Shown here piece by piece: positions 1,496 through 63,220 of a stretch of 64,000 nt of DNA. A program made the translations under genes and the position numbers. The stretch is taken from contig CP142451.1 of the NCBI GenBank assembly GCA_038049695.1, positions 36,204,501 to 36,268,500 of the forward strand. The letters run 5' to 3'. Source of the stretch: Cinnamomum chago (Eukaryota > Streptophyta > Magnoliopsida > Laurales > Lauraceae). The first letter of the stretch is position 1. Every line of letters begins with the position of its first letter. The notes beneath the pieces were generated by a model. It had not been told where the DNA came from, searched no databases, and saw only the letters and a list, made by a program, of their open reading frames with translations.

Positions 1496-1502
1496 CCCCC
1501 CC

Positions 1503-33358: not shown

Positions 33359-33743
33359 TTTGACAAAGGGAAATTCTATTCGCACCCACCGGAAGTGATG
33401 AATACACTCACAATTTAAATATTTTTTAATTACTAAAATGCCCTCGGGTGAAAGGACGAAATTGCCCTTACCATCAACATCCGTCTTCCTCCTTTGGTTC
33501 ACCAGCGGCAGTGGGTCTCCATCTCATCTTCTTCTTCTTCTTCTCCTCCTCCTCCTATCCCTTTATCCATTCCCTTCTCACTGCACCTCTGCACTCCTTC
33601 TTCCTCATTGATTTTCATCTCCTTCATCATCATTTCTTCTAACTCTTTTTAATATATCATCAAGTCTCCTCCATTTATTGAACGAAGTTGGAAGTACAAT
33701 TATCCCTACACCACATTGTATATTTAAAGTAGGCATTTGCAAT

Positions 33744-36669
33744 ATGGACAAGCAGTTGACGATCTACGAAAATGAGGTATATACATTTTGACTTCATTTC
33801 GTTCGTTTTTTTTTTTGTTTTCTCGCGTCCTGCACGACATTCTATAAGACGTGCAAAATTATATTACACGGCCTATATAGACAGTGCAAAATTATTCTGC
33901 ACGGCCTATATATACCGTGCAATATAATTTTGCACCGCCCATATAAACCGTGCAGAATAATTTTGCACCGCCTATATAAACCGTGCAGAATAATTTTGCA
34001 CCGCATATATAAACCGTGCAAAATTAATAAATGAGTGTGCAGTGCTAATCTATAAATTTGCGATATATTTGCAGGAGGTTGAATCAACCGGTGCCAGTGA
34101 GTGCCTTTTGGATTTTACAAATGTCTTCACCACTGACATGATATTCAGAAGTCGAGAGGGCCTAATCCAATGGACAAGGGATGTTGGAAAGAAACATGGC
34201 TTGGTAATTGTAATCAAGACTTCGGATGCTGGTGGAGATGGACGGAAGCCGAGAGTCGTTCTTTCTTGTGAGAGAAGTGGTAGTTACAGGAGTCCATCGA
34301 AGGTATTCGAGAAGAGAAATCCTAAGAAGGCAACGGGAACGAAGAAGTGTAGTTGCCCTTTTAGTTTGAAGGGTCGAAAGTTGGCAACTGACTACGATTG
34401 GATGTTAACAGTGGTTTGTGGGGTGCACAATCATCCAAACGCACAGCATCTAGAGGGGCACTCGTTTGCCGGGAGGCTTTCTGTGGAAGAAATCAACATT
34501 TTGTTTGATATGTCTAAGAGTTTAGTGAAACCGAGGAACATCCTTCGAACATTGAAGGAAAGGAATGTGCACAACACCACTACAATTAAGAGTATCTACA
34601 ATGCTCGCCAGAAGTTTAGGGTGACAGAGATGGCCGGTCGATCACAAATACAGCAACTCATGAGGCATTTGGAAGAGAACAACTACATTAAGTATCACAC
34701 TAGCAACGATGATACAGATGTTATCATGAACCTATTCTGGGCACATCCATCATCTATTCAGTTATTATGTGCATTTCCAGAAGTTTTGATAATGGATTCC
34801 ACATACAAGACTAATAGATATCGACTTCCCTTGCTTGAGATTGTTGGTGTCACATCTACTCAATTGACGTTCTCCGTTGCTTTTGTGTACCTTGAATCAG
34901 AGAGGGAGGCCAATTATAGATGGGCTTTGGAGAGGCTTAAGGAATTAATGGATGGATGCATCACGACCCGTGTGATTGTCACAGACAAAGAGTTAGCGCT
35001 GATGAATGCAATAAATGTTATTTTTCCGAATGCAGCAAACTTATTATGCAGGTGGCATATTTCTAGGAACATCTTGGCAAATTGTAAGAAGTGTTTTGAG
35101 ACCAACGACAGATGGGTTGCATTTATCTCTTGTTGGAACACGCTGGTAGTCTCTCCAACTGAAAGCGACTACACGCAAATGCTAAGTGCTTTGGAACGGA
35201 ATTACTGCGGGTATCCACATGCTGTTGATTATGTGAAGACCTCATGGTTGAATAAGCATAAGGAGCAATTTGTGGCTGCATGGACGGATCGGCATATGCA
35301 CTTTGGGAATGTCACTACTAACAGAGCTGAGAGTGCACATGCAAAATTAAAGAGACACCTAGGCACATCGAGCTGTAGCTTTGATTTGTCTTGGCAGGTT
35401 ATACATGCCTTGCTAGAGTTGCTTTTTACAGAAATAAAGGCTTCTTTTGAAAAGAGTTTGAACACCGTGCAACATAAGTTCAAACCGGCACTGTTTCGTG
35501 AATTGAAAGGATTTCTATCAAGGAATGCTTTGGATATAGTGTTAAATGAGTCGTTAAGGGCTAGTCATATTGGTCCAGATACTACGTCATGTGGGTGCGT
35601 AATCCGACGGACTCATGGTTTGCCATGTGCACATGAAATTGCCGAGTACATAAGGGAAGGTTCTCATATACCACTGAGTAGAGTCCACCACTATTGGCGG
35701 AAGTTCAATTTAGAAGCCACTATGGTGAACGAAGCCCTTGAGTTGACCACAACTTCAGAGTTCGAGTTGATCACTAAGAGAATTCAAAGTAGTGATCAGA
35801 AGGGTAAAATACAAATTTTAAGAAAACTTAGAGAACTCGGTTGTCCTTCATCTACTTCTCTTATCGAACCAGACATAAAATTGAATACCCGCGGTCGGTC
35901 ATCATCAAAAAGAAAGAAGTTGGATAGATCTACGCGTCGGGAACCATCTAATTTTGAATACGCACTGTCGATAAAAGATAGCGTTCCAGCTAGATTAAGC
36001 AATACAGTTGCAACGAAGAATAAGGAGAAAATGACTGTCCGTCGCACTCGGTCATGTACGTTTCTGCGTTTGCTTCCTCAGTCTTTGGGCCCCTATATCC
36101 ACACTATTAAGGATGTTACAGCTGATGGTAACTGTGGATTCAGAGCGATAGCTGGTCTCCTAGGCCTGGGCGAGGATAAATGGATGCAGGTTAGAATGGA
36201 TTTGAGCAATGAATTGCAGAGGCATCAAAATTATTATGCACTGGTCTATGGAGGAGAGGACAGGGTTGGGGAGCTGTATTACGCATTGTGTTACTTTGAA
36301 AGCAATCCTTCATTTGATCGATGGATGACAATGCCGGACATGGGTCACTTAATATCTTCATATTATAACGTTGTATTGGTCCTTCTTTCACTGCAGCAGT
36401 GCCTTACTTTCCTGCCTTTGAGATCATCCCCGATTCCATCAAGTTCTCACAAAGTGCTCGCGGTTGGTTTCGTCAATGGAAACCATTTTGTTCAGGTCTT
36501 CATGAAACCCGAATCACCCATGCCTCCCATTGCTACAAATTGGCATAGACACCACCATCCTGAAGCAGACGGATGGCAGCTCCCATATGCAAAGAGCATC
36601 GAGCAATTCAGAGAATTGATTGGAAACAGCGTCGCAACGCAGGAGTCGGTCAATCTTGACAGCGATTGA
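33744..36669 (+). CDS. MudrA-type transposase fused to an OTU cysteine protease (MULE copy 1)
   Basis: Exon 1 (33744-33776) codes for MDKQLTIYENE. The donor is GAG|GTATAT, the intron holds a palindrome array, and the acceptor is TTTGCAG at 34074. Exon 2 runs 34075-36669. The product is 875 residues with no disruption. Domains are a WRKY-GCM1/FAR1-like zinc finger (C103, C105, H129, H131), an RNase H-fold MULE transposase core with apparent D252 (IMDSTYKTN), D315 (VTDKE) and E430 (NRAESAH), a SWIM finger (517-535, CGC...CAH), a basic linker, and an OTU domain (about 685-820) with D695, C698 (DGNCGF) and H815 (GNHF). OTU proteases remove ubiquitin. The fusion suggests the transposase acts on or is protected from ubiquitination, which is inference. 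All catalytic positions look intact. Confidence 0.92.
33832..34028 (+). repeat. Palindrome array A1, intron 1 of MudrA-OTU (copy 1)
   Basis: About six units of roughly 33 bp alternate CCGTGCA with TGCACCG/TGCACGG around AT-rich spacers. The last units (CCGTGCAGAATAATTTTGCA, then CCGCCTATATAAA) are nearly perfect repeats. Each unit can form a short hairpin. The same heptamer recurs in arrays at 36816-36985 and 39610-39800. Confidence 0.88.
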
Positions 36670-36815
36670 TTATGTGTACTCTCCATTTGATGTAAAGAAA
36701 CACATTAAATATTTTGTATTGGATGGCCAATGAATTCGATGAGGTCTTTATGTGTTTATATTGTGTATATTAATTCATTCATAATATTCCAAAGAAGGTA
36801 TTACTTTATTAACAA

Positions 36816-36985
36816 CTGCTCGGTTAAACTTGGCTGTGCAAATGTATTCTGCACGGCAAATATGTTCCGTGCAAATGGATAATGCACGGGATAAAGTTGC
36901 CGTGCATAAACTATTTGCACAGTAATAAAGTGCCGTGCATACAGTATTTGCTCGGAACATGGTGGCCGTGCAGTGTGTTTTACCA
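36816..36985. repeat. Palindrome array A2 between the convergent 3' ends (copy 1)
   Basis: CCGTGCA (or CTGTGCA) and TGCACGG alternate at about 15-18 bp half-unit spacing, just downstream of the MudrA-OTU stop (36669) and upstream of the PMD stop (37240). Confidence 0.85.
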
Positions 36986-37239
36986 ATTATTCGGACGGAA
37001 ACACATAACACACATATCCATATAAAAATACAAGTTCAAACATAAAAAAGTGTATCATCAAAACATCCATTAAAAAAATAGATACATCAAAAAATCAGGT
37101 GATCCATCCATACATATCCAAAAAACTTCTTACATCGCAAAAATGGATAAACCCATCCATACATCCATACATTAATTTCCCATCCATACAGACTTAACAA
37201 AATAATAAGACAAAAAAAAAAAAAAAAACCCTCATGCCA

Positions 37240-39562
37240 TCATGTATCTGTACGTCGTCGGTACGTCACCGGCAAGCCATCCAGGATCTCGAGGGTGGTT
37301 TGGAGTGCCCGGTAATAGAAATCTGCAGGCTGTTCCGTTCGTGCAATCGCAGCGCGGAGATGGTCCCTCGCCCGAGTGATCTGTAAGAAACAATTAACTG
37401 TGTCAATACCTAAGATAAGTATAACAAATGGATGCATACTGTTTCGATAAAGTACAAACACTCACCACTCTTGGAGTCGGGTCAGCTATACCCTCATTAG
37501 GGTGATAGTGGGAATGACGTTGGGGGTTCTGTACTCGAGGGTGTGAAATCCTAAAAAACCACTCGAGGTAATCGGGTGAGCACTCCCATGCATGTTGCAC
37601 TCGATGGCCGCGGTGCGCTAAGGACAATACATGATCCTCCCAAGTAACCTAGTACTGGTCTAGAAATCTGTAAGAGACCCTGTACTGTCCAGCAGTAGAT
37701 CCCCGAGACGCACGAATGGGGCGCGAGCGGTGCGGGTGGGATGGTCTGTACATATCCAAACTGTCGGAGAACCCTATGTGGATGGTAGGGTTCAATGACA
37801 TCTAGCACTCTCAAGCAACCACAGAAGAAATATATCTGATGGAATGGATGATAAGCCCTGACACCAGTATACGGATCCCACTGGACCTGTGGCAAGTAAA
37901 TGAAAGAACTCATTATTATAATAAAAATTTGTCCATTGAAAAAAAGTGCAACATTATACCAAGGACCCCATATGGGTGCTCACCTGACTCGGATGAAGGT
38001 CATCCAGCCTCTCACGCAACAGTTTTATGTTCTCCCTCGCAATCCCAGAATCCTGTCCAGCATTCCAGTGGCTCGCTTGAGGCATACCAGCGGTATATCC
38101 CCACTGGACAGGAGGACGGGTAAATGGGAAGTGCTCGTACACCCAAGACTGCAAAAGATACCAATTATTAATTATACAATTTAAAGGATCAATTACGATG
38201 GAACATGTATATGTATATGTATTACCGCGAGCAGTGTCAGATATCCAGCAATCTGTCGCACGTCTGCCCTCGTGGCGGTCCCCAATTGGCGATAAAGATA
38301 TGCAAGTGCGGCAGCCCCCCATGCATAGCGACGGACCCGTGGCAAGTCCATAAGTAAATGTAGGTAGGCAATGGGGACTCGAGTGGCTGACTTATCGGCG
38401 AAGAGTGTACAGCCTAACAAATACAGAAGATAGCCTCTAGCTGCACACTCTACCTGCTCAACAGACAACGCAGGACTCACCTCGCCGCACACCCGTTTGA
38501 TCCAGGCCATCCTCACTACCCCACCACGCGCTACTCTCAACTCAACTGACGCAGATGCCCTATCCACGCCCAGTCCATGCTCAAGTAAATCTACTTGATC
38601 AGTAAATCCCATACTAGTCGATGCCTGGACAGGCAGTCCCGTTACTGGGATGTCGAGGAGAGTACCCACATCATCTAGGGTGATCGTCATCTCACCAAAT
38701 GGCATGTGGAAGGTATTTGTCTCGGGCTGCCACCTCTCTACAAAGCTGGATACCAGAGGGCTGGAGATATATCGGTAAGAAAGACGCTTCAAACCTGCCA
38801 ATCCAGACTCCTCTATAATAGCATGAAACCGAGGAACATGGATATCGGCCCCATCCCCGGGCAAAGGTATGTACCAATCCTTCAGCCCTCGCCAATGATT
38901 GATACATTTGAGTGCCTCACGTTCCTACACATTACAAGTATAAATCTTCATTAATATCTGTTATTATAGACTTCAACACATCTTATTTGAAAAACGATTA
39001 ATTAAAACATTAAAAAAGGCAATTGTACCTCCCCGTCCCATATGGACAAGGCTACGTGTGTCCTAAAACTCATAAGGACAGATAGGTCGGCCGGACCGCC
39101 GGGGATAGGACCCTCCCTTGCCGCCGCAGCAGGAGGACTGGATGGTTGTCCCTCCTCGAAATGGGAATCATCCTCCCCTGGTGCCCCTGCAGGGAGACTG
39201 GACGGCTGTGCCTCCTCCTCAGAGGAATCATCCTCTGAAGAACTGTCACCATGCTCTTCTCCTGGTGCCGATGCACGGGGACTGGACGGCTGTGCCTCCT
39301 CCTCTGAGGAATCATCCTCTGATGAACTGTCAACATGCTCCTCAACCTGCTCCGGGAGTGGATCCTGTTGCACTTTTCGTCTTCGTTCAGACGCCGTTGG
39401 CCGTTGACGGCCGGCGGTCGAAGAACTCGCATGCACACCTCGGGAACGCGGTCTTGAGACACCAATCTTCGTTCGAACTCTCGATGGCTCGCTAGAAGAA
39501 TTGGCCCGTCCCCTTGTCATCTGTGAGCTGGCACCAATACGGCGAGCTGGTCTTCTCGGCAT
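37240..39562 (-). pseudogene. Plant mobile domain (PMD, MAIN-like) gene of MULE copy 1, frame broken in exon 4
   Basis: A leader intron (acceptor TTAACAG just 5' of the ATG, donor CAG|GTAAGA near 40003) carries a palindrome array. Coding exons are 39029-39562 (acidic Ser/Glu-rich N-terminus with two near-identical SSSEDDSSEEEAQPSS repeats), 38226-38924, 37984-38148, 37466-37886 and 37240-37380. Exon 2 carries the PMD signature (FVERWQPETNTFHMPFGEMT, then ITLDDVGTLLDIPVTG). Exon 4 needs a one-base shift near LAPHS and meets a TAG after FLDQY at about 37650, while its remainder (PDYLEWFFRISHP) stays recognisable. PMD proteins related to MAIN/MAIL1 act in nuclear gene expression and TE silencing. 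Its role here is unknown. The breaks could also be assembly errors. Confidence 0.82.
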
Positions 39563-39607
39563 TTCTTCCAATCTGTTAAAAATGAAAACCAATAAAAGAG
39601 ATTATCA

Positions 39608-39800
39608 TATTTTGTTGTACTGCTCCGTTTAAATAGACAGTGCAACATTGTTCTGCACGGCGAAATGGTACCGTGCAAATTCTGTTTGAACGGCTCAATG
39701 TAACCGTGCAAAATCTGTTTGCACTGTAATATGAATCCGTGCATATATATTCTGCACGGTTTACACTTACCGTGCATAAAATCCCTGCACGTCTCTGGAC
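39608..39800. repeat. Palindrome array A3, leader intron of the PMD gene (copy 1)
   Basis: CCGTGCA/TGCACGG half-sites alternate around AT-rich spacers as in arrays A1 and A2. It lies between the leader donor near 40003 and the acceptor near 39570. Confidence 0.86.
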
Positions 39801-40311
39801 TGCCGAGCAGATCGCGAACAACTATTCATGTTTTCAAAAATGGAAAACATTGGAGTTCGAAACTATTCATGTTTTCATTACGGACTTCTTCCCTATTTGT
39901 TGCAGAGGTCTCACAACTATACTCTCTAATGCATAAATTACAACCTAAACAAATTTGTGAAAATTATAAACCTATGAAGAAGAAGAAGAAGAAGGGCTCT
40001 TACCTGTTTGAGTGTCCCTGCTGATGAAGAAGACGAAGAAGAAGGAACGCAGCTCACCAACCGTCCACGAGGGTGTGAGAGATCTGAAGTGGAGAACGTC
40101 GACGACTCCGAAATGGCCAGAAATTTGAAAACTCTGAACGAGGGAATGTATTCAGGCAATGGAACGAATGGTGAGCTTGGATGGGCAGTTTGGGGATTAT
40201 GGTGGGTGAGCTGAGTAAAATCAAGCCAAAATTAGAATGGTTGTGGTGAGTTCAGCAAGTGGGTGTATTCAGGAGTCTTAGTGGGTGCATATAGAATTTC
40301 CCTTTGACAAA

Positions 40312-40445
40312 TGCCCTTACCGGATGGTAAAATTAGGGCACGTGGTTAAATTTACTCGGGAGTGAGATGGGACTCGTACCTACATGTTTTGTGTGCTTGC
40401 TATTGCGACGCAAAATTTCTTCAAACACAAAGAATTCATCTTTAA
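40312..40445. other. Spacer between MULE copy 1 and the Harbinger element
   Basis: 134 bp, presumably the former upstream region of the alpha-mannosidase gene. The words GAGTGAGATGGGACTCG occur here (near 40358-40378) and left of MULE copy 1 (near 33335-33352). No gene is seen. Confidence 0.4.
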
Positions 40446-40630
40446 GGGCACGTTTGGCAAAAATCCTCTCAGAGGAATCCATGTCAATTTTTTGTGCTAT
40501 TGTGGAAAACCCATGTTTGGGTGCAAAATGCTAAGAAGATTTTCAAAATCCAAAATCTACGGTAGAGGGGATATCTACGGTCTGACCACCCCCCCTCAGA
40601 CCCCATAAATCGTTGCTTTTTAAGAAGGGG

Positions 40631-40944
40631 TATATAAGCCCCATTTTCTGCGCTGAATCAAAAACCCCAACGCCTCCCGAGTTCTCTCTCGACTCCTATC
40701 TTTTCTCTCTGATGCTACCAGGGTGGCGACGACGCGATGAAGAGAGCTACTACAGAATGGACGTGATCAAATCTGCTCCGACACGCCCAGAGGTGGCTGG
40801 ACTCCGCATTGCTGCAACTGTAGTCTCACTCATTTTCCTCTCTCAACAAGGAACAGAGGCCCAAGGTTATCTCCAGCCCTCCTACAGTACCTGTAGACCT
40901 CGACCATCTTCACCGTCTGGCTGTGCCATCTTGCTCCACCATTC

Positions 40945-40975
<31 letters not shown>

Positions 40976-41001
40976 CTGTGGAGTCATTCACTATAAATCA
41001 G
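40631..41001 (+). promoter_or_regulatory. TATA box and non-coding leader exon of the Harbinger gene
   Basis: TATATAA at 40631-40637 is followed by a CT-rich leader with a (CT)n run near 40955-40975. A donor AATCAG|GTTAGG lies at 41001/41002. A long leader intron would then run to the acceptor (TGTAG) just before the ATG at 42960. Confidence 0.5.
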
Positions 41002-42959
41002 GTTAGGGTTTTTGTTTTTTTTTCATTTTTTCCCCATTTTGCATATTTCTTACCTCTTTTCTTGATTTCTTACATCTTTTCTTTTGTGGGAATGTGATCT
41101 GTTTTTGTAGGAAGATTTTTGTTCTGTTTCTAGCATTAGGCATTTCAGTGACTTGCTCTAAGGTTTTCTTAGACCAAGGAGGAGTTCTCATTGTCAAATG
41201 TATAACGAAAGATGGGTTAGGAACAAATAAAAAAATAGTTATTTGTATCACTATGGAATAAGCATTTTTGTAAGTTGATTGTGGTTAGGAGTTTATTGAA
41301 CACACAACAATCCTGGAACTTGAAGCTTCTGATGAAGTGAACCCCCCTTGATTCTTCTAAGTTGTTGTTTCTTTTTCTTTCTTTTTTTTTATCTTCAACT
41401 GTACCATCTATCTTCAATAGTTATTGATTTTAAGAATCAAAAGTGGCCAATTTCTCAAATGGGTTGTTTGCTGGAATTGATGAACGCCTCATTCAGTGGG
41501 ATGGTGGGTTGCACATTCAGCTGTGAGTGGGCCAGTCCATTTTTGTGAACCGTTTGGGCTATTGGGGGGACAAATGCATATTATGCATTACCTAATTTGA
41601 TATGTGCAATTGGTAGACTTATTCATATTTACATGGTCACAGTCAAAGTCCATATGTCCTGGTTCCATGGCTTAATTCAATGCACGAGACATCTTGCTTG
41701 TTTTCAATTTACTGTTTGTCCCATTTTTTAATGATCCATTTACTTTAGTTTTTGTTCTGCTATTTTGCTTGTGAAGATGTGAGTATGGCGTGATCTTGTG
41801 GGCTTTGCTTTTGATATAGTACACCAAAAGCCATCATGTTAGAAATTGCTGGCCCAAAGTAGATTGATAATATGGGTTGGGAGGTGAATAGTATGATAGG
41901 AAAGATAAATGGGTTAATGCTTAGCTGATGATGATATCAGTGGGGACATGTCAGGTCTCACTGTCACAAATCTTTTCAATTTCATGTTTAACATGCATAG
42001 TAACTGCTCATGGGAATATTAACGAGCTATATAATGCAGAGGAAAAAAATAGAACTTATTCTTTTCTAACAGAGCATGCTATTTATAGTGGTGTCTTTGG
42101 GGCTGAAAAAATTGCTTACCAACCACTCTGCTTGTGTTTCTTAATGGTGGATACATGCTCACCTCTACATTTATACCATCATTCTTGTAGATATTCATAT
42201 TCATGATCCGCTACTTCATAAATAGATATATTAATTTTTTTTCACTATTCATATTCCACTTCTTCATATACATGTAGATGTGCACATGCTTTACTCATTT
42301 CTTTTTCTTTTACGAGCCAAACCGACTTGGTTTTGGATGAGTTTTATTTATGGAGTAGCCCACCTATCATTTAAACTCACATGTCTTGCCTATGCAGATT
42401 TCGTTTGGTGCAAGTGAAGAAATACACTTTTTTATCTATCAACTGTAGAAATGTCAGCTGTTAGCAGCTTTGCTTGTTGGCTTGTACATATAAATCTATG
42501 TGGAGAAGCCATCAGAAAATATGATATGCTATGCCACCTCTCTTTGGTGTTTTGTTGTTTGTGTATAATATCAATATGTTCAATATACATTCTTGAACTC
42601 ATGTGAGAGCTTGGTTTGCAAAACCTAACTAATACAACAATCCCAACTTAGAAAATTTTCAATCAAATTAAAAAAGGCTTGAATATTATGCCCTATACCT
42701 AAATAGGCTGGGTCAACATGTGCTTCAAGTCGGTAGTAATAGTTAGGGATATGACTTTCATGATAGATGATGAAAGATAAATTTGAAGGTCTCATAGTTT
42801 ATGGGCACCCATAAAATGTTCTTTATGGGAAATAGGTAGGGTTCAACTTTATTACGGCAAGAAACTTTTGAGTGTTTTTTTCTAATCAAAAGATGGGCGG
42901 TATTCCAAATCAACATATATGTAAAACTTGTTTGTTTAACACTGAATGAAAAATGTAGG

Positions 42960-43425
42960 ATGTCTCAACCAAGTAGCTCTCAAGCCGCAAGAGGATCTAC
43001 TTTGAGAAACATGAAGTGGACGTGCACGAATGATGTAGCGCTCCTCCACATCATGCTTGAAATGCGCAAAGAAGGGAAAGTTATCCCTGGGGGGTTTACC
43101 TCAGAGGGATGGGGTCTAATATCAAAGGAAATGCAAACAAAGTTTGGGCCAGAATTCAGCAAAGATAAGTTGAAGAGCTACAAAAAATGGTATAGCGCGA
43201 TGAAGGCTATGCTAAACTTAAGTGGGTTTGGATGGGATGAAGAAAGGAAAAAAGTCACTGCGGAAGCAGGAGTGTGGGATGATTACATAGCGGTGAGATC
43301 TTTATTCAATTTATAAAATCTTTTTGGGAAATGCAAGTATAATTTTTTTTCTTTGTTATTATTTTGGAACACAGGCACATCCTGCAGCCAGCATGTATAG
43401 GTCTAGGACCATGCCCGACTACTAA
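42960..43425 (+). CDS. SANT/Myb-like DNA-binding protein of the Harbinger element
   Basis: Exon 42960-43292 encodes a Myb/SANT-like domain (WTCTNDVALLHIMLEMRKEG, then KDKLKSYKKWYSAMKAMLNL, then GFGWDEERKKVTAEAGVWDD). It ends at GCG|GTGAGA. The next exon, 43375-43425 (acceptor ACACAG), adds AHPAASMYRSRTMPDY and stops, 127 residues in all. In PIF/Harbinger elements this protein helps the transposase enter the nucleus and bind ends. Relatives continue past the PDY block, so the TAA at 43423 may truncate it. The start follows an apparent leader-intron acceptor. Confidence 0.8.
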
Positions 43426-43426
43426 A

Positions 43427-43466
43427 GGTATAGGCCAGCATGTATAGGTATAGGCCAGCATGTTTT
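43427..43466 (+). repeat. 20-bp tandem duplication after the SANT stop
   Basis: GGTATAGGCCAGCATGTATA is followed at once by GGTATAGGCCAGCATGTTTT. A third, imperfect copy (GCCAGCATGTATAGGTCTAG) forms part of the preceding exon, so local duplication may have disrupted the original C-terminus. Confidence 0.6.
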
Positions 43467-44770
43467 TAAAGTTGCCATTTTAATTGAATGGTTTGTTGGA
43501 TCTGATTGTGCTCTTCTTTGTTATGTTTATGTTAATGTGTGAAGATGGGTGAACAATCAAATGGATAACTGGCAGATGCTTAAAGATGTTTCCTTGTTGT
43601 AATGGTTGGGTGAACAATTTAAATGAAATGTGCTGGAAGAATAGTGGAAGTTTCACCTACATGTCCTCAAGTACAATGTAAGTTTATTGTTGCTAGACTG
43701 CCAACTGAATAAGTATGCAGCAGCAGCGGGTGTCGTATTAGTAGTAGCTGGCCTTCATGGTTTTCATGTGATTATAGGTACTCTTTTCTTGATCATATAT
43801 TCATATGTGGTACACCCTCCACTATTTCAGATAGTATTTTTCATTCGACCTTTTCTCCAGCGACTGGATTTTATGGTTTTCATGTGATTAAAGGTACTCT
43901 TTTCTCAGTCTTGTCGTATTCACCAATATCTTGGTCATCTGACCAAGGAGCATTATGTCACTTTTTGGGTTTATAAGTGCCAAAAGTGATAATGAGCACC
44001 TTCCAGGTTTGTGCTTGCTGCTGAAATGTATCATAGTTTAGTCGTGAGGTCTTATGTGTGTCTATTTTTGCATTAAGGACTTTCGACGAACATGACTTTA
44101 TGTAAACTATATGTGGGTTAGCTCCTTGATGAATGGCATGGTTTTGTATCAATATTCAGACAATCATACTACCATGCAGCTTCCAGATCTCAGAGTTTGT
44201 GTTTGGTATGTTTGGGTTTTGGGCCTGTTAAAATAAAGGTTCCATTATTTCATTATCATAGGCTACTGCACTACAGGATCTGTAGTTTGTTAACTCCCCT
44301 GTTTGAGATGTAGACTCATTTCATTGATTCAGACAAACATATGGTGGTTGTCCCTATAATCTCTTGAGTGTATGATCCTATCTATCCATTTCCTGGCCTT
44401 TTCTTCGGTCCACGTCATTGCTGAGTTTTCTGTTTAAAGTTGTTCCATTTTAGTTTGATTCTGCCTTTGTCGATTATGAAGAGGAAGCCATTAAGCCTTG
44501 TGTTTGCTGTAGATCTGGAGTTGGTTCCTCCAAAGATGATGTCCCATGAAAAGATAACATTCCATGAAATGGAGTATAGGTCTTCGATTCTTTGGTCATA
44601 GAAAAATGGCAGCCAGAGTATTGGTTTTTCCCCCTTCCATTTTTGCTGTTTTTTGGTAGCTTGAGTTTAAAACCCAGTGTTGCCTTATTGACTGAAATGA
44701 AGGATTTGAAGCCGTGACAGTTGCATGCCTTCTCATACCGTGAGACTAAATTTTAAAGTGTGTTCTGCAG

Positions 44771-44929
44771 GAGTTGTCATCCGAGGGAAGGAAAGGAAAG
44801 CACTGGTCATCTCCAAGGAAAGCGAGTGTTGTTACAGATGAAAGTTGTTCAAGCCGGTGCTCATCCTCGAGAGCTCCACAAGATAGTTCCTCCAACAGCA
44901 TCGGCGATGGATCAGTGGCCAAGAAGTAA
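44771..44929 (+). CDS. Probable terminal exon of the SANT/Myb gene
   Basis: After a good acceptor (GTTCTGCAG), 53 codons read ELSSEGRKGKHWSSPRKASV, then a Ser-rich acidic tail ending SIGDGSVAKK and TAA. The composition matches the low-complexity tail of SANT proteins in these elements. Joining it to the SANT exon needs a splice that skips the stop at 43423, so the exact transcript is uncertain. Confidence 0.45.
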   Translation, partial: ELSSEGRKGKHWSSPRKASVVTDESCSSRCSSSRAPQDSSSNSIGDGSVAKK

Positions 44930-46228: not shown

Positions 46229-46512
46229 TTCAGTTTTACGACACTGTTCGGCACTGTGTGTCTGAAAAAGAATAATATTTTCGGCCTCGATGTATCGTAA
46301 AGGTTTTATCTTTTCGGCACTATGGTTCCGAGTAAGAAGATACTTTACAGCATCATAAGTCCGAGAATTTAATATTTTGACAACACTACATCACCGAAAG
46401 GGTCACATTTCCACAGTGAGGTAATGTCAAAACTTTATTCTCCACACGGATAATCAGGGCCGAACAATGTTTTAGGGCTGTGACTCAGTGCTGAACAGTG
46501 AAAATGTCTAAT
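46229..46512 (+). repeat. TTCGGC/CCGAA array B1, leader intron of PMD (copy 2)
   Basis: TTCGGCACT, TTCGGCC, TTCCGAG, TCCGAG, ACCGAAAG, GCCGAAC and GCTGAAC half-sites occur every 20-40 bp between a leader donor (CTCT|GTAAGT at 46083/46084) and the acceptor at 46551. The layout is the same as array A3 of copy 1, with a different heptamer. Confidence 0.72.
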
Positions 46513-46553
46513 TTCCTGTATTGATTTAGGACTGGTTTTTTTTTTTTTCAGAT

Positions 46554-48565: not shown

Positions 48566-48839
48566 GATGTGGATTTAGCAAATGTTCCATACTTTTTAGT
48601 GGTTCTGAATGAAGTACTGATTTTGAAATATTGTAAACTGATATTATGCAATTTTTTGGGTACCAAGGACGGTACATGTACATTTTTTGATATATGTTGG
48701 TCTCTTTATGGATCTCTTTTTATTATGCAATTTGTGGTATACTTTGGAATTTGAAAGTTCTATTTAGCTCATTTGCATCTCATCTAGATGAAATGGATGA
48801 TTAAGTTGAAATAATTTGCCATTATTGGTGCCAAACATT

Positions 48840-48965
48840 GAATATGTGTTCGGCGTATCAGGTCCGACACTATATTAATTGTTCGGCATTCAGGATCGTA
48901 CGAATTGCTTCCATTCGGTCATGAAAGTTCGAGTATTAAAAATTGGCTTGGTTATGCAAGGTCGT
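48840..48965. repeat. TTCGGC/TCCGA array B2 between the convergent 3' ends (copy 2)
   Basis: TTCGGCG, TCCGACA, TTCGGCA, TTCGGTC and TTCGAG lie at about 25-bp spacing. The location equals array A2 of copy 1. Confidence 0.68.
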
Positions 48966-49113
48966 GCAATTAACAAAATTAGCAAATTCAGCTTAAATTA
49001 AGAGATATGGAAGGTTCTTTTATAAAAACAAAAGTGAAAAAGTTACAACAAGGATCAATTTCATTGAGAAATAAAAAATTTGGATCTTTGTACATCCTTA
49101 TAAAATAAAACAA

Positions 49114-52075
49114 TCATTCCAACTCGATGGTTTCGCATGTGGCAACTGATGGACTGATAATTTCACTGAAATGTTGGATCCGGGATTGATAAGCTGTAAT
49201 CCAACCATTTGCGGAAAGTTGATGGTGACGAATCCAATTAGTTGGAATGGGTGGAATTGGATGACCTTGTACAAGGAAAACCTACACAAGACAAGGAATT
49301 CAAGTGACTCACATTAGCATTTCAGGCAAAATAAGATAGGTACATCTACGCATTTACTATTATCACCTGAACGAAGTGGTTCTGATTGACAAAACCGATT
49401 GCGATCTCTTGCCTAGCTGCAGTAGGAATAGGCACCAATCAAAGAGGAAGAAAAGTCAGGCATTGTTCAACTGACAGGTGGTATAGGACAACGTTATAGT
49501 ACGATGCAATTAGATGTCCCATGTCCGGCATCGTCATCCACCGATCATAAGGAGGGCAATCCCCTTGGTATGATATGATGTGGAGAAGTTCATCAACTCG
49601 TTGGTGTGATCCATACAATTGTTTGTAGTGTTCTACATGAGTCACTAACTCTCTAGAAAGAACTTTCCATACATGTTGCCACGAATCCTCACCAAGTCCC
49701 ATCAACCCTACAATGGCTCTAAAGCCACAATTGCCATCCGCAATGACATCTTTTACATGATGAATATAAGGCCTAAAACCATCTGGGAGTGTGTTAATAT
49801 AAGAAACTGGCTTCAAATTTCGGGTGCGACTGACCTTTTGCTTGGGCATCAACCTCTTCACGAGCACCAAGGAGGCGCTACTACTGACAATATTCTCTTC
49901 GATCTTCAAGACAAGGGAGTAACTGTCCTGAGCAGATTCGATAAATTCAAAGGAAGAGGGTTCACGTTTAGTAGAATTATGTAATTTCAATTTTGGGCGC
50001 CCCCTAACTTTAGTTTTCACATTTGGCTTGATCAATGAGGTGGTATCAGGCTTTGCTAGCTCCCTAAGCTTATTCAATATTTGTAACTTCTTACTCAAAT
50101 CATAGCTTCTGAACTATTTGACAATTAAATCTATCTCTGGCATGCAATCCAAATTGGCACTAGAGTCTTAGGTAGAAGCGGTAGATAGCAGGTCAAGCTT
50201 GGGCCAATGCGTATGCGTGCAATCTAGAGGAATAGGGCGCCCAGCACTTATGCATTCCGCAATCTCATGAGCACATGGTAAACCATGTGTGTGTTGAAGT
50301 ACACAGCCACAAGCATCTCAATCAATACCAACTGACGAGGCTTGCTTCATCTTGGCCAAGATTTTCTCCAATGCACTTATAGAAATATTCCCACGAAGTT
50401 CCTTGAATTTGGAAGGCTTGAATTTATGTTGCACAACCGTCTTACTTTTTTCAAATGATTCATTTATATTTGTATGTTGCAGCTGCAATAGGTTGTGAAT
50501 CTTCGTCCAAGAGTCTTCAAAAGTCCATTGGCCTGATCCAAGTTGCCGCTTCAGCTATGCATGTGAACTCTCCACCTTGTTTGTTGTAGTGTTCCCAAAA
50601 TGCATGACCTTGTCCGTCCAGGCAGTCACAAATCTGTCCTTGTACGTGTTTAACCAAGACGCACTAACATATTGAACTGCTGGTGGATAGGTGATGAAAT
50701 CCTTTAGAAATATGTTGAATTGCAGATTGTAATGTTCCTCTGTGGACGAGGAGACCAACATGTTCCAGCTCATTATAAACCGGTCCTACTTTTCCTTCGT
50801 CTCAAACAACTTCTTGCATTTAGCCAAAATATTTATGTTGATATGCCATTTGAATAGAAGATGTTTGGCGCTGGGGAAAATAATAGATATGGCGTTCATT
50901 AAAGCCGTCTCTCTGTCAGTAACAATAACACTAGGAAGAACACTCTCACCAATTAACTTTGCGCAAAATACCCAATGCCCATGAGTAGCAGTCTTCACGT
51001 TCATTCTGGAGACATAATGCAAACCAAAAAAGTTTTCTTTGTGGATGTAACCCCAACAATCTCTAATAAGTGCAGTCCATTATCAACACATGAGGAAATA
51101 CATGCAATAGGTCTAGGTTGGTAGGGTGTGTGAAGAACAAGTCAATGACAATATCTGTTTCAGGACAATTCCTATGCCACTCAATGTACTTATGTCCGCC
51201 AATAATTTCAATAATTGCTGCATCTGACTCCATCCAGCCCTCTCTGCAACTTTATGTCAATGAAGTGCATTGTAAATGGTCTTCATTGTGCTTACATTTA
51301 AGTCATTTTTATGTTTCAATGTCACCAAGATATCCTTTGGCCGAACCATATTCTTGGACATGCCTACTAGTAATAAAGTTTCCTCCTCTGTTAGTCTCCT
51401 TGCAAATGAGTGCCCTTCTAGGAAGTTTGCAGCTGGATGATTATGCACACCACACACTACATGCAACATCCATTCCTCATTTGAGCCCACCACTTTGCCT
51501 AGTAACATGAATGTGCATCCACATTTTTCCGAACCAGTCAGCTTCAATTTCTTCCCAACGGTCTCATCTTTAGTTATCCTCGTGTCTCTATAAGACCCAC
51601 TGCTCTCACACTCAAGGGTCAGCCTTGGTTTTTTATTTCTCCTGTTGGGCGCTGCTGATGTCTTAATCACAACAATTAAAACATTTCTCCTCCCAACGTC
51701 ACGAGCCCAATTATTTAGGGCTTATTGGCTTGTGAATATCTGCACATAACCAAACAAAATTATATTGAATCAAGTGACTACATCAATTTAAATATCGAAT
51801 GATTCATCTACATTTATTACTTCTTGGGTGATAAACTCATTACTATAGTCGACCACACATTCCGAGCCAACCTTGCTGCATTCAGTAGGCGCATGAAACT
51901 GTTCGTTCAATTCTGAATTGATCAGCACTGTGTTGCCGCTCAAAAGACATCCAATCGGATATGGAGGGCCGAACGGTTCATATCAAACTAAAAAATAAAT
52001 CACGATGAATATGCTTATCTCAACACTGCTAGACTGATCGGGAGTCATCATCTGCTTGTCCTTTCGCTCGTCCAT
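49114..52075 (-). pseudogene. MudrA-OTU transposase of MULE copy 2 (decayed)
   Basis: Exon 1 (52019-52075) encodes 19 residues from the ATG at 52075. Its donor reads GAG|ATAAGC, a GT to AT change. A second exon (ending FITQE at about 51825) and the main exon follow. The zinc-finger part (51257-51670), transposase core (VTDRETALMNA, about 50910), SWIM (CGC...CAH, about 50290) and OTU part (DGNCGFRAIVGL, about 49720; DRWMTMPDMGHLIASYYNVV) are all recognisable. Stops or shifts occur near 51700, 51257, 50785, 50555, 50320, 50105 and 49439. The last exon, 49114-49281, follows an 85-bp intron that copies 1 and 3 lack. Not functional. Confidence 0.85.
51885..51985. repeat. TTCGG-type array B3, intron 1 of MudrA-OTU (copy 2)
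   Basis: Degraded half-sites GTTCGTTC, TTCTGAA, ATCGGATA, GCCGAAC and GGTTCA occur between exon 1 (52019) and the second exon. The position matches array A1 of copy 1, with fewer well-kept motifs. Confidence 0.5.
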
Positions 52076-52811
52076 TGCTTAAGAATGCTTGTTAAGTGGG
52101 TATCAACTTTGAATGAAATCAAGATTAAAATCATTGCAGTCAAATAGAGAATGCGGTGAATATTTAAATCGAGAGAGAAGATGAAAGAGAGGGGATAACA
52201 ATGGGAGTGAGACCAAGAGTGAAATGTATCATCAGAAGCACTGATAAATCGTCTGAGGGAGAGGAGTCAATGTAGCAAGTAGAGAGGAGTGAATGAAGGA
52301 AGTAGAAACCATTCTCATATTTTCATATGAGAGGGAAAATGCAGTGTGTAGAAAGATTCTGGGAGGGGTGAAATGCAGTCATTTTGGTAAATTTACAAGT
52401 GGGCATTTTAGTCTCAATTTATTACAGTGTGTGGAGAGCAATTTTCAGTGTGTAGATAGCATCACTCTTTATCTTTTTTTTATTACATTCTTACCCTTTC
52501 ATGGAATGACCAAAATATCCATTATCCCACAAAAACTCAAAACCCATTCTCTTTTCACACACAAGCTCATCTTCTTCCCTAAAAGATTCTCTCACCCATC
52601 TCACTCTCCACTTCCTCCACCTTCCTTGGGCAACTCATCTTCACTCACATTCCTCCATTTTCTAGTGCAATGAAAGAAGAAAATAACAATCAAATGGTGC
52701 CTTTAAAACTAAGCAGCAGTGGAAAGGTCCGTTTCTTAGGTTTTTTTTGTATTTATGCCTTTTTCTATTTTTTTTTCTCACCTGGAATGAGTTGCAGGTT
52801 ACCGATATGTA

Positions 52812-52942
52812 TGGTCTTTCAGGGCCGAGCAGATGGCATATATTTGGATGAATAGTTCCGAACATAATGCATCTATTCGGACCTATATATAGTTCCGAAC
52901 ATATGCCATTTGTTCGGACTTTTAAGACCGACCAATGATATT
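52812..52942 (+). repeat. TTCCGAA/TTCGGA array C1, intron 1 of MudrA-OTU (copy 3)
   Basis: GGCCGAGCA, GTTCCGAACAT, ATTCGGACC, GTTCCGAACAT, GTTCGGAC and GACCGACC alternate around AT-rich spacers at about 18-bp steps. It lies between exons 1 and 2, exactly where array A1 sits in copy 1. Confidence 0.8.
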
Positions 52943-54483
52943 TGATTTGTACATTCTGCGGGTCTCTACGCAAGAAAGTCAGGTTGGATCGGACTTTGGT
53001 ATTGATTATCCTAGTGAGTTTATAACTCAAGAAGTAAGACCAATTGTGAATTTATTGCTCAAATTATAATTATTTGTTACTAAATTCGTATTAAATTTGT
53101 TTATTGGATATTTCACAGTCGCGATTCATTGATCAATTGGGCTCGTGGTGTAGGAAGGAAAAACGAGTTTGTCATTGTGATAAAGGTTTCAAATGCTGCT
53201 CGGGTAGGTGTCAAAGTTAGAGTACTCCTTACATGTGAGAGAAGTGGACAATATAAGCATGAAGATGGCCAAAAGCGAAAAATGATCAAACAAACCAATT
53301 CAAAAAAAATGTGGATGCCATTTCGCATTAATGGGCAAAAAGTTAGACTCAAATGATTATTGGATGTTGGAGGTCGTATGTGGTGTGCATAATCATTCGA
53401 CTGCGGATCGTTTAGAGGGGCATTCATTTGCAGGTAGATTATCACAGGAGAAAATAATGTTGCTGGTTGATATGTCCAAGAGCATGGTTAGACCAAAAGA
53501 AATTTTGGTTACGTTGAAACAAAGAAGTGAATTAAACGTAACCACAATGAAGACAATATACAATGCACGCTACAGATATAAAGTTAATGAGTGGGGTGGA
53601 AGAAGTCAGATGCAACAACTGCTTGGGAAGTTGGCAAAGCATAATTACATTGAATGGCATAAGAATTGTGACGATAGCGAGACTGTAACTGACTTGATTT
53701 AGACGCACCCAAGCAGTTTAGATTTGTTGCGTGAATTTTCACATGTTTTGATAATGGATTGTCCTTACAAGACCAATATCACATGCCGGTATTGGAGATT
53801 GTTGGAGTCACATCCACAAACATGGCTTTTCATACCTTCATGTGGAACGTGAAGAAAATTATGCATAGGCACTGGGTATATTGCGTTCTATTATTGGTGA
53901 TGGTATTTTTCCCGATGTCATTGTGACGGATAGAGAATTGTCACTCATGAACGCCCTTAACAGAGTATTCCCTGGTGCTACTCATTTATTATGCAAATGG
54001 CACATTAATAGAAACGTATTGGCGAGATTCAAGAAGTTGTTTGAAACAAAAGAAAAATGGGACAGGTTTATTATGAGCTGGAATATGTTGGTGTCTTCAT
54101 CAATAGAAGAGGAGTTTGGTGAACAACTCTGTAAGCTAAATCAAGAATTCAGTACGTATCTTGATGCACTCAATTATGTGAAAGGTAGTTGGTTGGATGC
54201 TTACAAGGAGAGATTTGTCTCCGCATGGACAGACAATTGTGTCCATTTTGGGAATACTACCTCGAACATGTACTTTAAAAAAATACTAATTATTTGATTT
54301 ATGCCTATTAATTACTATGCCTCACCTCTTAACAATCCTATGCAGGGCTGAGAGTTCACATGCACAGCTTAAGAGGCAGCTTGGATCAAGTCTTCCACAG
54401 TTTGCTTGAGTTGTAGCATACCGGTATCAAAGCTTCATTTGAGAAAAGTAAGACAATTGTGCAACATAATTTCAAGCCAGCCG

Positions 54484-57400
54484 TGTGAGGCCCCACCCCT
54501 TGTGGGCCCTCTAATTGAGTTTTTAAATACTATTTATTACTAATTATTAGCTAATTATATTAATTAGTGGCTAATTATGTTAATTAGTGGGTTAATGAGG
54601 GTAATTAGATAGATTTTCCTAAGTTTTAGTTAGACTAGCTTAGTTGAGTTAGGTTAGCTTAGTTGTATTAGTATTAGGGCTCTTTTGCAATTTTTAGGGT
54701 TAGTAGGGAGTGGAGGCCCTTGCTAGGAATTTGTGTGTTCCATAGGGGGTTTTTCCTAAAAAGCACCATTCTAGAACTTTCCCACCTAAAGACCCAAATG
54801 ACCCTGACCCTAACCCTAATCCCATACTAACCTAAAGGAATTTTTAGTCTTTAGCCACCCCCAAACCCTATAAATCCAGTACTATTCCCAAGAAAAACCC
54901 TAGCAACTATTCCTCTCTTCCGTTTCCCTCTTTTCCTTTCTCTCATTTCTCCCTTAGAGCTGTGAGTGAGCTATTGTTCTTGAGCTGGGAGAATACCCTA
55001 GGAGCTGCAACTACTTCTACTTCATCTTCTTCATTGGATTTACTTGGTTTTCTTCTCTTCTCTCCCTACAAACCTTCTAATCCAAGCAAGGCCAGCACGA
55101 TATCTGATTTAACATAGAACATGTGTTTCTGTTTTCCTTGATTCTGTATTTCAATTCAGTTTAATGTATATATGCTAGTTTTACTTTGAGCTTAGTATAG
55201 ATGAATGGTTGGCATTGATGGATGGGTTTCACCCCCATTTGGAAGATCAATGGGCCTAATTGGTGTTGGATGGTGGGCATTGTAGTGGTTTTGTGTTTTT
55301 CAATGATTTGGTGAAGTTTGGGAGTGATTGGAGGTGTTTTGGTGGAAAATCGGGTTGAAAATGGAAAAATCTCGAAAACTGGGTTCTATAGGATTTTTTC
55401 AGTGTGCCAGGTCGACCTGGCCCTGCCCAGGTCGACCTAGGTACACTAAAACCTGCAGAACCGAGTCCTAGTTAGAAAATTTCTGCAGAACTAATTTTGT
55501 GTGTGCCAGGTCGACCTGGCCCTGCCCAGGTCGACCCGGGTACACTATTTCTGTAGAAAACAACTCCTAGTTAGAAAAATCCTGCAGACTGAGTTTTCAA
55601 TGTACTAGGTGGACTTGGCCCTGCCCAGGTCGACCGGGCACACTGAAAATTGGGAACAACAGCTCCCAGTTAACAAAACTCTACAGAACTGATTTTCAGT
55701 GTAACCGGTCGACCGGGCCCTGCCCAGGTCGACCGGGCACACTATTTTCTGCAGAAATCAACTGAGAGTTGGTCTTTCACCTGATCCCAGACATCCTGTG
55801 TGCTAGGTCGACCTGGCCCTGCCCAAGTCGACCCGGGTACACTATTTTTGCAGGAAATGACTGAAAGTTGGATTTTCTCCTGATACACAAGAAATGCAGT
55901 GGAAAAATGTCTGAAAGCTGAGACATCACTTTTTCCAAGGTTTTTGGTGTATGCGGTCGACCACCCAGGCTAGGAGGTCGACTGGACACATTGGGAACCT
56001 TTGAAAACTAGCTAAGTCTTCCAGGAGGCCTGAACTAGTTTTTCCAGTGCACTCGGTCGACCCACCAGGCCAGGAGGTCGACCGAGCACACTACACACCA
56101 GGTCGACCTGGGGGTCAACCCCCAGTGTACCCGGTCGACCGGGCCCTGCCCAGGTCGACCGAGCATACTGGGATCAGTGATTTTCCAGTTTTTAGAATTT
56201 TGGAGTTTTGATAAGTTGTGGGGCTCCTTGACCATCCAAGTGGACATTTATCAATGTACTAAGCCCGAGTCAACGGTGTGGCTCAACTTTGACTCGTGGG
56301 GACCGCCGATTAGGGTTTTGGTTGTTTAATCTAAGATGATTCGATCATTAAATATCGTCAATGATGCCCGTAACCTCAGGAGCACCAAACACAGTATCCT
56401 ATAGCATCTAAGACTTCATTTAGAGATCAAATTACCGGAGATGGACCCGAACCTGAACGTGGTCCATTACCTAGGTTGGACTCTTGTATTTTTCCTATTG
56501 ATTCTCATGTTTGAAGTTTACACTTCACCTTTCTATTATTGTCACTCTTATATCCTTAGTGTAGCTAATGACTGTTAATTAATGGAAATGAATGACCTGA
56601 ACCTAGGATATCTAGAGGTGACCCGATAGTATGATTTGGAGAACACTGACCCGTGTTTGTGGCTAGACGGGCCCTTATTGGGCCTAAGTATGGTTATGTG
56701 AACCCTTAGATGGGAGAGGTAGTTTATATTGGGATTATAACTCATGATGATTGAGAATGAGCTGTTTATCAGTAGAAATGGATATGTTGCCTCGTTTGGA
56801 CCATTCTAGACCAGGCCATGTGTTGATGGGCCTTGGTATGGATCCAACGAGTGGGCTTGGACTTGGATTGTAATCCATGGACGGATGGATATATGAACCT
56901 CTTAGAGACTTGGTTAGGACCTTGTTCACTCAAGGCAAAGCCTAGACAGACACAGACCCTTAGAGTTTCCTTGAGTCGGCATAGACATTCACTCGGTTGA
57001 TTTAAGCTCAGCCTGTGGACTGATCATCCCTGGTAGGAGCTATTATGAGTGTTGAGAAGCTATCATGATGAACTGTGTTGTTAAGACGGATGGCGTGATA
57101 CTGGGTCCAGTCTTCGAGTGATGAGTGTGATGCGATTGATGAATGATTTGCGGGATTAATAATTCCCAGCACTGGTGAGACTCCCCGCCACAACTGTGTT
57201 CAGTATGGGAGGGCCGCGGCATAATATCCCGCGGTATTCCAGCTCGTGTGAATGTGCCATTTTGTAGTAGATTAGATGTTGTATCTTTATCCTGATTCCT
57301 TATGCTTATCTTGCTCAACTGCCTAGTTTATTTACCTTGTTATTCTTTAAATTATATACATGTCTCTATTCATTTGATATATATGTCCTATGTTATTTGT

Positions 57401-57905
57401 ATACTGTGACTTGCCAGATCTTTTAGATCTGACCCATCTTTGGTGCTTAGGCCTTGACCCAGAGATCGCAGAGGATACGCTTGCGCTCGTAGAAGCGCCC
57501 GTAGCTGGAGAGTTCGCGTGGGGCCCGGCCGACCTTGATGTCGAGCCGGAGGATGGAGAGCTATTACCAGGGTTTTGAGAGTTTACTTTATTTTGGGCTT
57601 TGAGAGATATTTTGTAGTGAGTCGGGTAGTTATCATAAATGTAATTAACATTTGCTCTTAACATTTAACACCTTTAAACTAGACTGTTGTTCAGCTCTCA
57701 TTTAATACATATATTGATACTCATTGCTTCCGTTTTACTTATTATGCTTCCGCAATTTAACCATTGAGTTTATATTGTTCAAAAGTTTTAAATTGGACCT
57801 CACTGCGGACCTACGATTTTGGAAGTTCTCGGATTTTCCGAGAAGTAGCGCGCTAATTTCGGATATTCGAACGACTTTATCGGTATTCGGAATTGGGGCA
57901 TTACA
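54484..57905 (+). mobile_element. Solo Gypsy LTR, 3.4 kb, inside MULE copy 3
   Basis: It starts TGTGAGGCCCCACCC and ends GGGGCATTACA. Flanks AGCCG (54479-54483) and GGCCG (57906-57910) agree at 4 of 5. Joining the flanks restores the MudrA-OTU frame (FKPA, then EYKELRG). TATAAAT at 54869-54875 is a promoter candidate. There is no coding, primer site or polypurine tract inside. A tandem region of GGTCGACC palindromes lies at 55400-56168. The 3' third resembles that of the solo LTR at 19407-22333. Confidence 0.88.
55400..56168. repeat. Tandem GGTCGACC palindrome repeats in the solo LTR
   Basis: About eight units, spaced near 100 bp, each have paired sites such as AGGTCGACCTGG, then CCCTGCCC, then AGGTCGACC, then GGGTACACT. 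Spacers carry CTGCAGAA and TCCTAGTTAG. Sequence drift between units is moderate, and the last units invert the motif order. Confidence 0.85.
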
Positions 57906-59257
57906 GGCCGAATACAAAGAGCTTCGTGGTAATGTCTTTAAAAATGCACTTGAAAAAATCTTAACAGAAACCAAGAGAGCCAACCTAGTTGGAATTGACG
58001 CCAGTATTTGTGGTTGTGTTATTCGACGCACACATGGATTACCCTGTCCGCACGAGATTGTATAATATATAAGTCAAGGGCGGCCTATTCCTCTAAGTTG
58101 TATACATCTGCATTGGTGTAAACTTGATATTTTGCCTACTGCCCCATCGTAAAGTTCTTCTATGGGCTTGGATTGTAAGGCAGATTTAGAGTTACTTGAA
58201 AAACGGTTCAATGAGTATGATTCCACGAGAAAACTGGAACTTCCAAGGAAGATATTAGAGCCATTTAAGCCAAATAGTACTCATTTGATAGAACCTGAAC
58301 TAATATCAAGAACAAGAGGTAGACCAAGTATGAAAGTTGACACCTCAACTCGACGAGATCCAAGCGCTTTTGAGTCGGTACTGTCTGCACAGAATAACTA
58401 CTCCCCTAAATCAGTTGCAATGACATAAGTTAAAGATAAAGGACGGCTAAAATGCAAACCAAAGAGAAGAAAACAGATTAGGGTTATTCGTATGAGGTCA
58501 AAGAACATCAATAATTATGTTCTCTCAATTCCCGTGGGGTTGAGACCTTACATTCGACATGGAAAGGACGTTGCAATTGATGGTAACTGTGGCTTCATAG
58601 TCATCGTTGGATTGGTTGGCCTAGTCGAGGATGAATGGAGACAAGTAGGAGAGATTTATTACAAGAGCTGTTTGCACATGTAGACCACTACAAACAATTA
58701 TATGCGGTGGAGAACAGAGTTGAGGAATTGGTTGAAACATTATCATACTATGATGACAACCCATCAGTGGACTATTGGATGACTATGCCTGACATGGGGC
58801 ATCTCATAGCGTCTTGTTATAATTTGGTGTTATACTACTTGAGTATAGAACAATATCTGACTTTCCTCCCATTGCGGTCTGTGTCAATGCCAACGCCTTC
58901 TCGGAACGAGCGAACAATAAGTTTTGTTAATCGAAATCATTTTGTTAAGTTATTCTTAGTACTTGGTCATCTAATTCCGCCTATTGCAAATAAGTGGAGA
59001 CAATTTCATCATTCTTATGTGAATGGTTGGGAGACTCCATACAGGGATCGGATTGCACAATTCAAAGAGCTAGTAACTCTAGATTTATCAACATGTGAGA
59101 CAATTGATTTGGATTGAATGTAACAAATTGAATCCAAGCGAGTTTATGTTGAATGTAACAAGTTTTTTTAAATATTTAATGGAGTTCAGAATGTGCTTTA
59201 CAGGTTTTTATTGCATTTAATGAATGCTTGGGTGTATATTAAAGTATGTACAGGTTT

Positions 59258-59400
59258 TTAAACTGTTCGGATGTAGTGGTTTTGATGTGCTTTACAGGTT
59301 TTTATTCCGTTTGGAATTACAGATCCAAGCCTTTATAGGTGTTCGGATACACAATACTGTCCGGCGCTGAGTTTCTGAATAGATGTTTTAGTTCAGAACT
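59258..59400. repeat. TTCGGA-type array C2, 3' of MudrA-OTU (copy 3)
   Basis: GTTCGGATG, TTCCGTTTGGAA, GTTCGGATAC, GTCCGGCG and GTTCAGAAC occur within 140 bp downstream of the stop at 59117. Also present is a direct repeat of GTGCTTTACAGGTTTTTATT (59192 and 59288). Same relative position as arrays A2 and B2. Confidence 0.62.
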
Positions 59401-63036: not shown

Positions 63037-63220
63037 GGTGAGAGGGATCCTGAGGGAGAGGTGAGAACGAGAGAGAGGGTGGTCTAGGGCATTTACTCCA
63101 AAGCCAGAGAAGGGCTATTAGAGCGAGAGGTGAGAGGGATCCTGAGGGAGAGGTGAGACCAAGAGAGAGGGTGGTCTAGGGCATTTACACCAAAGCCAGA
63201 TAAGGGCTATTAGAGCGAGA
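63037..63220 (+). repeat. 92-bp tandem duplication in the CACTA-like element
   Basis: The unit beginning GGTGAGAGGGATCCTGAGGG occurs at 63037-63128 and 63129-63220 with only a few differences (for example GAACGAG against GACCAAG). Confidence 0.88.

Follow-up and report, generated by a model that had tools for sequence, protein, structure and literature searches.

The closest described system is the anti-silencing by VANC21 of VANDAL21 elements (and by VANC6) in Arabidopsis, in which arrays of a family-specific motif are found in introns and intergenic parts (PMC5735166). VANDALs are described as Mutator-like elements (MULEs) without terminal inverted repeats (TIRs) that carry VANA, VANB and VANC (PMC13317346), whereas the element considered here, copy 1 of a MULE from Cinnamomum chago, has TIRs, a transposase-OTU gene and a gene for a plant mobile domain (PMD) protein. 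Copy 1 lies in the window, that is, the whole stretch of 64,000 nt that was analysed (assembly GCA_038049695.1, contig CP142451.1, 36,204,501-36,268,500 of the forward strand), for which a first-pass annotation had described palindrome arrays at equivalent gene positions in three MULE copies. These arrays consist of half-sites that alternate in orientation at fixed distances, their CGG is constant between two families, the motif follows the PMD clade, and the predicted fold of the PMD protein matches that of VANC21. We regard it as probable that the arrays are platforms bound by an element-encoded protein, most likely the PMD protein with its predicted VANC21-like fold. A parallel is found in Spm/En, whose protein TnpA binds to short motifs repeated within the element that encodes it and promotes demethylation, with the differences that those motifs are subterminal, that the element belongs to the CACTA superfamily and that the protein is unrelated.

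An anti-silencing use of PMD-C captured by MULEs has been speculated on by Ikeda 2017 (PMC5418596) for elements of grasses and Amborella, in which PMD-C is fused to the transposase, whereas the PMD found here is encoded by a separate, convergent gene; the accessible part of that text mentions neither target DNA nor a fold link for PMD-C. The same idea is raised for PMDs encoded by transposable elements in a 2021 review that terms PMD a domain of unknown function (PMC8616336). Nicolau 2020 tied a promoter motif named 'DOWN' to MAIN/MAIL1, and Sasaki 2022 is cited in the review PMC13317346 for anti-silencing in Mu-like elements of eudicots. No description of alternating arrays of this kind appears in the titles and abstract openings of the literature searched.

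Arrays of alternating half-sites

Copy 1 qualifies as a TIR-MULE by its MULE transposase (PF10551, E 5e-25), its TIRs and a 9-bp target-site duplication (TSD), TTTGACAAA, at 33359-33367 and 40303-40311. The TIRs, which are short and were followed over their first 40-odd bases, set it outside the VANDALs as non-TIR MULEs, and the left one was recovered in 28 of 30 relatives. The two genes converge, the transposase-OTU gene running rightwards and the PMD gene leftwards, with splice landmarks placed by eye:

33368..40302, plus strand: copy 1, TIR-MULE of 6,935 bp, TIRs beginning GGGAAATTCTAT
33744..36669, plus strand: transposase-OTU gene (exon 1 33744-33776, intron 33777-34074, exon 2 34075-36669)
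amino acids 24-121 of exon 2: AFT/FAR1-like finger of the transposase (Pfam, AFT2 structure match)
amino acids 237-332 of exon 2: MULE domain of the transposase (Pfam)
about amino acids 664-812: OTU fold of the transposase (predicted-fold match)
38193..39562, minus strand: PMD gene (ATG 39562; PMD exon 38193-38924; PF10536)
about 39573-40003, minus strand: PMD leader intron (by eye)
33831..34020, no strand: array 1, 12 alternating sites in the transposase's first intron
36817..36972, no strand: array 2, 10 alternating sites between the 3' ends of the two convergent genes
39621..39809, no strand: array 3, 12 alternating sites in the PMD leader intron (chain from 39621)

The CCGTGCA/TGCACGG arrays reported by the first-pass annotation at three gene positions of copy 1 are thus present, two of them close to where the genes start and the third in between the 3' ends; the terminal parts of copy 1 showed no arrays. 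What had not been recorded is that the sites (at most one mismatch) alternate strictly in orientation, with spacings of 17, 16, 17 and 16 bp and a single 18. Read from 39638 to 39809, array 3 has 11 in-register sites and a further match that overlaps them out of register. The middle bases are CA in 28 of the 33 chain sites and CT or AA in the others. When the whole window was scanned with a 17/16 template that presumed no motif and gave G/C matches more weight, the copy-1 arrays came out on top (1.095, 1.058, 1.033 and 0.946), followed by the PMD leader of copy 2 (0.746), while 200 windows shuffled in 300-base blocks gave a maximum of 0.654, with at least 0.60 in eight.

The alternating geometry recurs across families and genome-wide, so that it is the rigid order TGNNCGG-N10-CCGNNCA-N9, and not position alone as first proposed, that persists. 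For the copy-1 transposase, the 52 copies with the best scores, among them that of the window, are 91-100% identical (52 scored of 3818 candidates), and all 30 that were fetched lie above the 17/16 cut-off. For the copy-2 type, 30 loci were sampled from 150 scored of 1143 candidates, and a TGNNCGG-like array was found upstream of the main transposase exon in 29 (the exception being L046), one of them a remnant in the window's own copy. Five further loci, of families that share 64-75% identity with copy 2 across the finger region, comprised two above the cut-off (L065, L066), one just below it (L069, 0.65), one array with an indel (L067, 0.53-0.63) and one remnant only (L068). Taken together, 30 of these 35 loci passed with 17/16 and 31 with 16/17 (the same arrays, started at the next site), and none with any of six neighbouring geometries. 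Across the 1.06 Gb in 14 contigs covered, TGNNCGG-N10-CCGNNCA-N9-TG was found at 1841 + 1883 places (a single array may contribute several) against 3 + 9 for its control, whereas the spacer-swapped pattern was found at 7 + 7 against 13 + 17. CCGTGCA-N0-20-TGCACGG occurs at 479 places (control, 10), with N9 in 44 of the 50 listed (33 distinct sequences). The usual array has 10-12 sites over about 155-190 bp (12 sites in 51 and 10 in 30 of 97 chains, related copies included), and its N9 is often AT-rich.

The half-site, averaged over nine equally weighted groups, reads T.TGytCGGc, with C, G and G as the most informative positions; the chains had been chosen by a TG..CGG template, which biases those columns, and motif-free scans yield the same CGG. 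Consensus introns of two families of the copy-2 type, built from 13 and 14 loci, were compared: CGG differs at 0/36 positions, the middle bases at 15/24, TG at 11/24, N10 at 18/60 and N9 at 25/46 (CGG against NN, N10 and N9 pooled, Fisher p 1.9e-8), and the remainder of the alignment differs at 54/401. These counts indicate that outer bases and spacers evolve more rapidly than the sequence around them and that CGG, despite its mutable CpG, is unchanged. It can scarcely be the case, therefore, that the arrays are neutral minisatellites born of tandem duplication: copy-1 arrays do vary in length by whole units and heptamer constraint is unclear in young copies, but CGG is the same at 36 of 36 positions while spacers differ by 30-54% between families, and the geometry is specific to one base genome-wide. 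The proposal that the motif diverges as a set within each element is borne out in copy 1 and does not strictly hold in L040, L044 and L063, where middle bases differ between two arrays that share a locus and are not proven to belong to one element; what stays constant across arrays is CGG and the spacing.

Inverted repeats could also form hairpins that function in RNA or in single-stranded DNA, serving in processing or as a source of double-stranded or small RNA. Strong folds were indeed found in 22 of 24 cases (12 arrays, both strands; z -3 or lower, to -15), since inverted repeats necessarily fold. Partners, however, do not compensate for each other: outer-base identity is 0.641 for N10 partners and 0.638 for other pairs within one array, and self versus cross complementarity in four groups gave p 0.125-0.93 inside and 0.38-0.79 outside. 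Array partners thus covary in neither outer nor inner bases, and copy 1 retains TGCACCG facing CCGTGCA in three units, so that the hairpin reading was rejected as very improbable.

Within locus L001, a 670-bp element (1391-2060) with its own TSD, GATAAGAGG, contains a short in-register array piece and has no match to the window's proteins; retention of part of an array in such an element fits a function in cis.

Candidate proteins for reading the arrays

The PMD of copy 1 is well above the Pfam cut-off (PF10536, E 3e-42, 145.5 bits against 34.9), and the sole significant PDB match of its predicted fold is VANC21 with its target DNA (9lnj). By this prediction, the element encodes a VANC-fold protein. 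At E <= 0.1, DUF1985 matched 39 of the 53 PMD sequences, and DUF287 is absent from the matches listed; none of the literature searched contains both 'DUF1985' and 'plant mobile domain', and Sasaki 2022 or any paper describing 9lnj may already make the PMD link. Besides the predicted fold, the arrays here share with those of VANC21 that they are built of short motifs, that they lie in introns and intergenic parts and that the motif differs between families. Motif type and PMD clade go together, as a reader encoded by the element would imply: the site goes with 14 of 18 PMD genes of one clade and with 0 of 15 of the other, counts that relatedness makes non-independent. An 84-bp repeat in two copies (39177-39340) encodes an acidic/serine-rich peptide in the N-terminal part of the PMD gene; variable regions of VANC often contain tandem peptide motifs as well (PMC5735166).

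The half-sites TGNNCGG, with their near-invariant CGG, form inverted pairs over N10 that are joined by N9, and a dimer of the PMD protein would bind each inverted pair, several dimers, or a filament, lying side by side along each array. The bound protein would mark copies of its own element and protect them, in the manner of VANC21 on VANDAL21, and marked copies might stay unmethylated or transcribed, which would allow the element to multiply. Every step past the predicted fold (binding by protein, the PMD protein as binder, dimerisation and the anti-silencing outcome) is inferred as the most likely course. Of the VANC-like self-recognition through a PMD or zinc-finger protein put forward by the first-pass annotation, the version with PMD thus receives strong though indirect support from geometry, CGG constancy, clade tracking and predicted fold, the transposase finger being the other possible reader.

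Several observations weigh against the PMD protein as reader. The six DUF1985 matches inspected singly are all under the Pfam cut-off of 35.1 bits, and a PMD sequence profile searched against PDB did not retrieve VANC21. Eleven of the 14 PMD genes with the site are close relatives (93-100% identical); more distant ones (59-79%) have the site in three of seven cases, and the one at 59% has a gap of 10, not 9. PMD and transposase are moreover inherited together, so that the link between motif and PMD cannot tell which of the two proteins reads the arrays, and chimaeras of type 2 transposase with type 1 PMD were absent among 150 x 150 listed matches. The VANC21 motif YAGTATTAY is described in a single orientation (PMC5735166), whereas the half-sites here alternate at 17/16 bp. 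In 30 young copies of copy 1 the heptamers do not clearly vary less than the spacers (intron, 0.064 against 0.067, p 0.67; 3' array, 0.082 against 0.132, p 0.09), which would be expected if most variation arose after insertion. Finally, the transposase too has a finger of DNA-binding type.

It is possible, if unlikely, that this finger enables the transposase-OTU protein to read the arrays as an internal enhancer, an autoregulatory site or an aid to transposition. The finger, which we take to be of WRKY-GCM1 type, matches Pfam AFT in copy 1 (PF08731, 27.1 bits against a cut-off of 21.6; 28 of 36 sequences matched) and the AFT2 structure 4lmg (E 2e-7), and the FAR1 DNA-binding domain PF03101 scores 18.9 bits, below its cut-off of 28.1. 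The right TIR of copy 1 contains TGCACCCA, near TGCACGG, as well as CACCCAC twice. AFT sites are of YRCACCC type and FHY3 sites of CACGCGC type; to our knowledge, neither FHY3/FAR1 nor AFT2 is associated with arrays of 17/16 geometry. Against a reading by the finger, terminal and array motifs seem to be independent, since L068 has a CACCC-type presumed TIR and three relatives have TGTTCGG-type arrays, and copy 2 combines TIRs that contain ACACACTG with TTCGG arrays. Predicted folds of the whole copy-1 transposase match the ISCth4 transposase and OTU, with no AFT or WRKY fold among the matches listed (the finger was not modelled alone) and no VANC fold, which lies in PMD. Proteins of Zn2Cys6 type recognise spaced CGG inverted repeats; a reader of this type was discarded, the domain being absent from the Pfam matches of the scanned proteins.

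FHY3/FAR1 and AFT2, the finger families matched by the transposase, are themselves host transcription factors. A host transcription or chromatin factor on the arrays could drive or insulate the element's genes, as might be suggested by the position of two copy-1 arrays of the three, which occupy first introns close to 5' ends. We consider this improbable, because such a factor would be expected to fix the middle bases, which vary between families in one genome while the geometry is constant, and sites for a host repressor would presumably be lost by the element.

Returning to the PMD protein, the chances appear evenly divided that PMD and VANC have in common a fold for sequence-specific DNA binding, that PMD-bearing TIR-MULEs and VANDALs run one ancient system of self-recognition and anti-silencing with two array architectures, and that MAIN/MAIL1, silencing proteins of the host, are DNA-reading relatives of anti-silencing factors from transposons. 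If so, sequence-specific anti-silencing would extend from Arabidopsis VANDALs to another kind of MULE, PMD would gain a biochemical role, and the role of MAIN/MAIL1 in silencing would become a DNA-binding hypothesis. The target site is exact, one base of spacing mattering genome-wide, and half-site pairs of fixed geometry could become addressable tools for altering DNA methylation.

Copies 2 and 3 and other features of the window

The arrays of the other two copies are decayed to different degrees:

46245..46416, no strand: copy-2 array, PMD leader intron, T(G/T)TTCGG type, 17/16, partly decayed
48847..48886, no strand: copy-2 remnant of the array between the two 3' ends, in N10/N9 register for three sites and degenerate beyond (weak, by eye)
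51886..51975, no strand: copy-2 remnant, transposase first intron, score 0.605 (weak)
52825..52934, no strand: copy-3 array, transposase first intron, TTCGG type, N10/N9 with one 14-base spacer (by eye)

Of the three copy-2 arrays in the first-pass annotation, that of the PMD leader (given as 46229-46512; intron donor 46085, ATG 46554) stands, 17/16 being the best of 289 geometries, and those of the first intron and the 3' ends are remnants that are not significant alone. In each remnant 16/17 ranks second and the top five geometries are mostly of period 33; relatives keep an intact intron array, which has been partly lost from copy 2. The copy-3 intron array can be parsed by eye allowing for decay; because of the 14-base spacer, 16/21 scores best and 17/16 (0.60) only fifth. 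The 3' array proposed for copy 3 (59258-59400) received no support. The two copy-2 remnants and the copy-3 intron array fit the register by eye and score about 0.60, the level met by 8 of the 200 shuffled windows. Copy 3 also contains an insertion at 54480-57906 (ends by eye) of LTR-like look (TGTGAGG...ATTACA), with a 99/198-bp tandem repeat at 55396-55857 that is rich in CAGGTCGACC palindromes.

The TIRs contain direct repeats, two CACCCAC at a distance of 22 bp in the right TIR of copy 1 (40259-40290, by eye) and ACACACTG twice, 21 bp apart, in the right TIR of copy 2, which are possible transposase sites. The second repeat in the left TIR of copy 1 (33380-33409, by eye) is CACTCAC, where most relatives shown have CACCCAC. 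Those relatives of the copy-1 transposase and of its PMD that carry names all come from flowering plants (among the best 120 of 369 and the best 120 of 665, respectively), in the case of the transposase from many of them.

Elsewhere in the window, retrotransposon remnants occupy 1421-5692 and 24959-26596, the minus strand carrying pieces of a copia-like polyprotein and the plus strand a gypsy-like gag (open reading frames by eye). The stretch 62318-64000 shows other inverted motifs, GCGTCGGCAAA / TTTGCCAACGC-like, together with ACGC repeats (by eye), and is possibly another element with arrays of its own.

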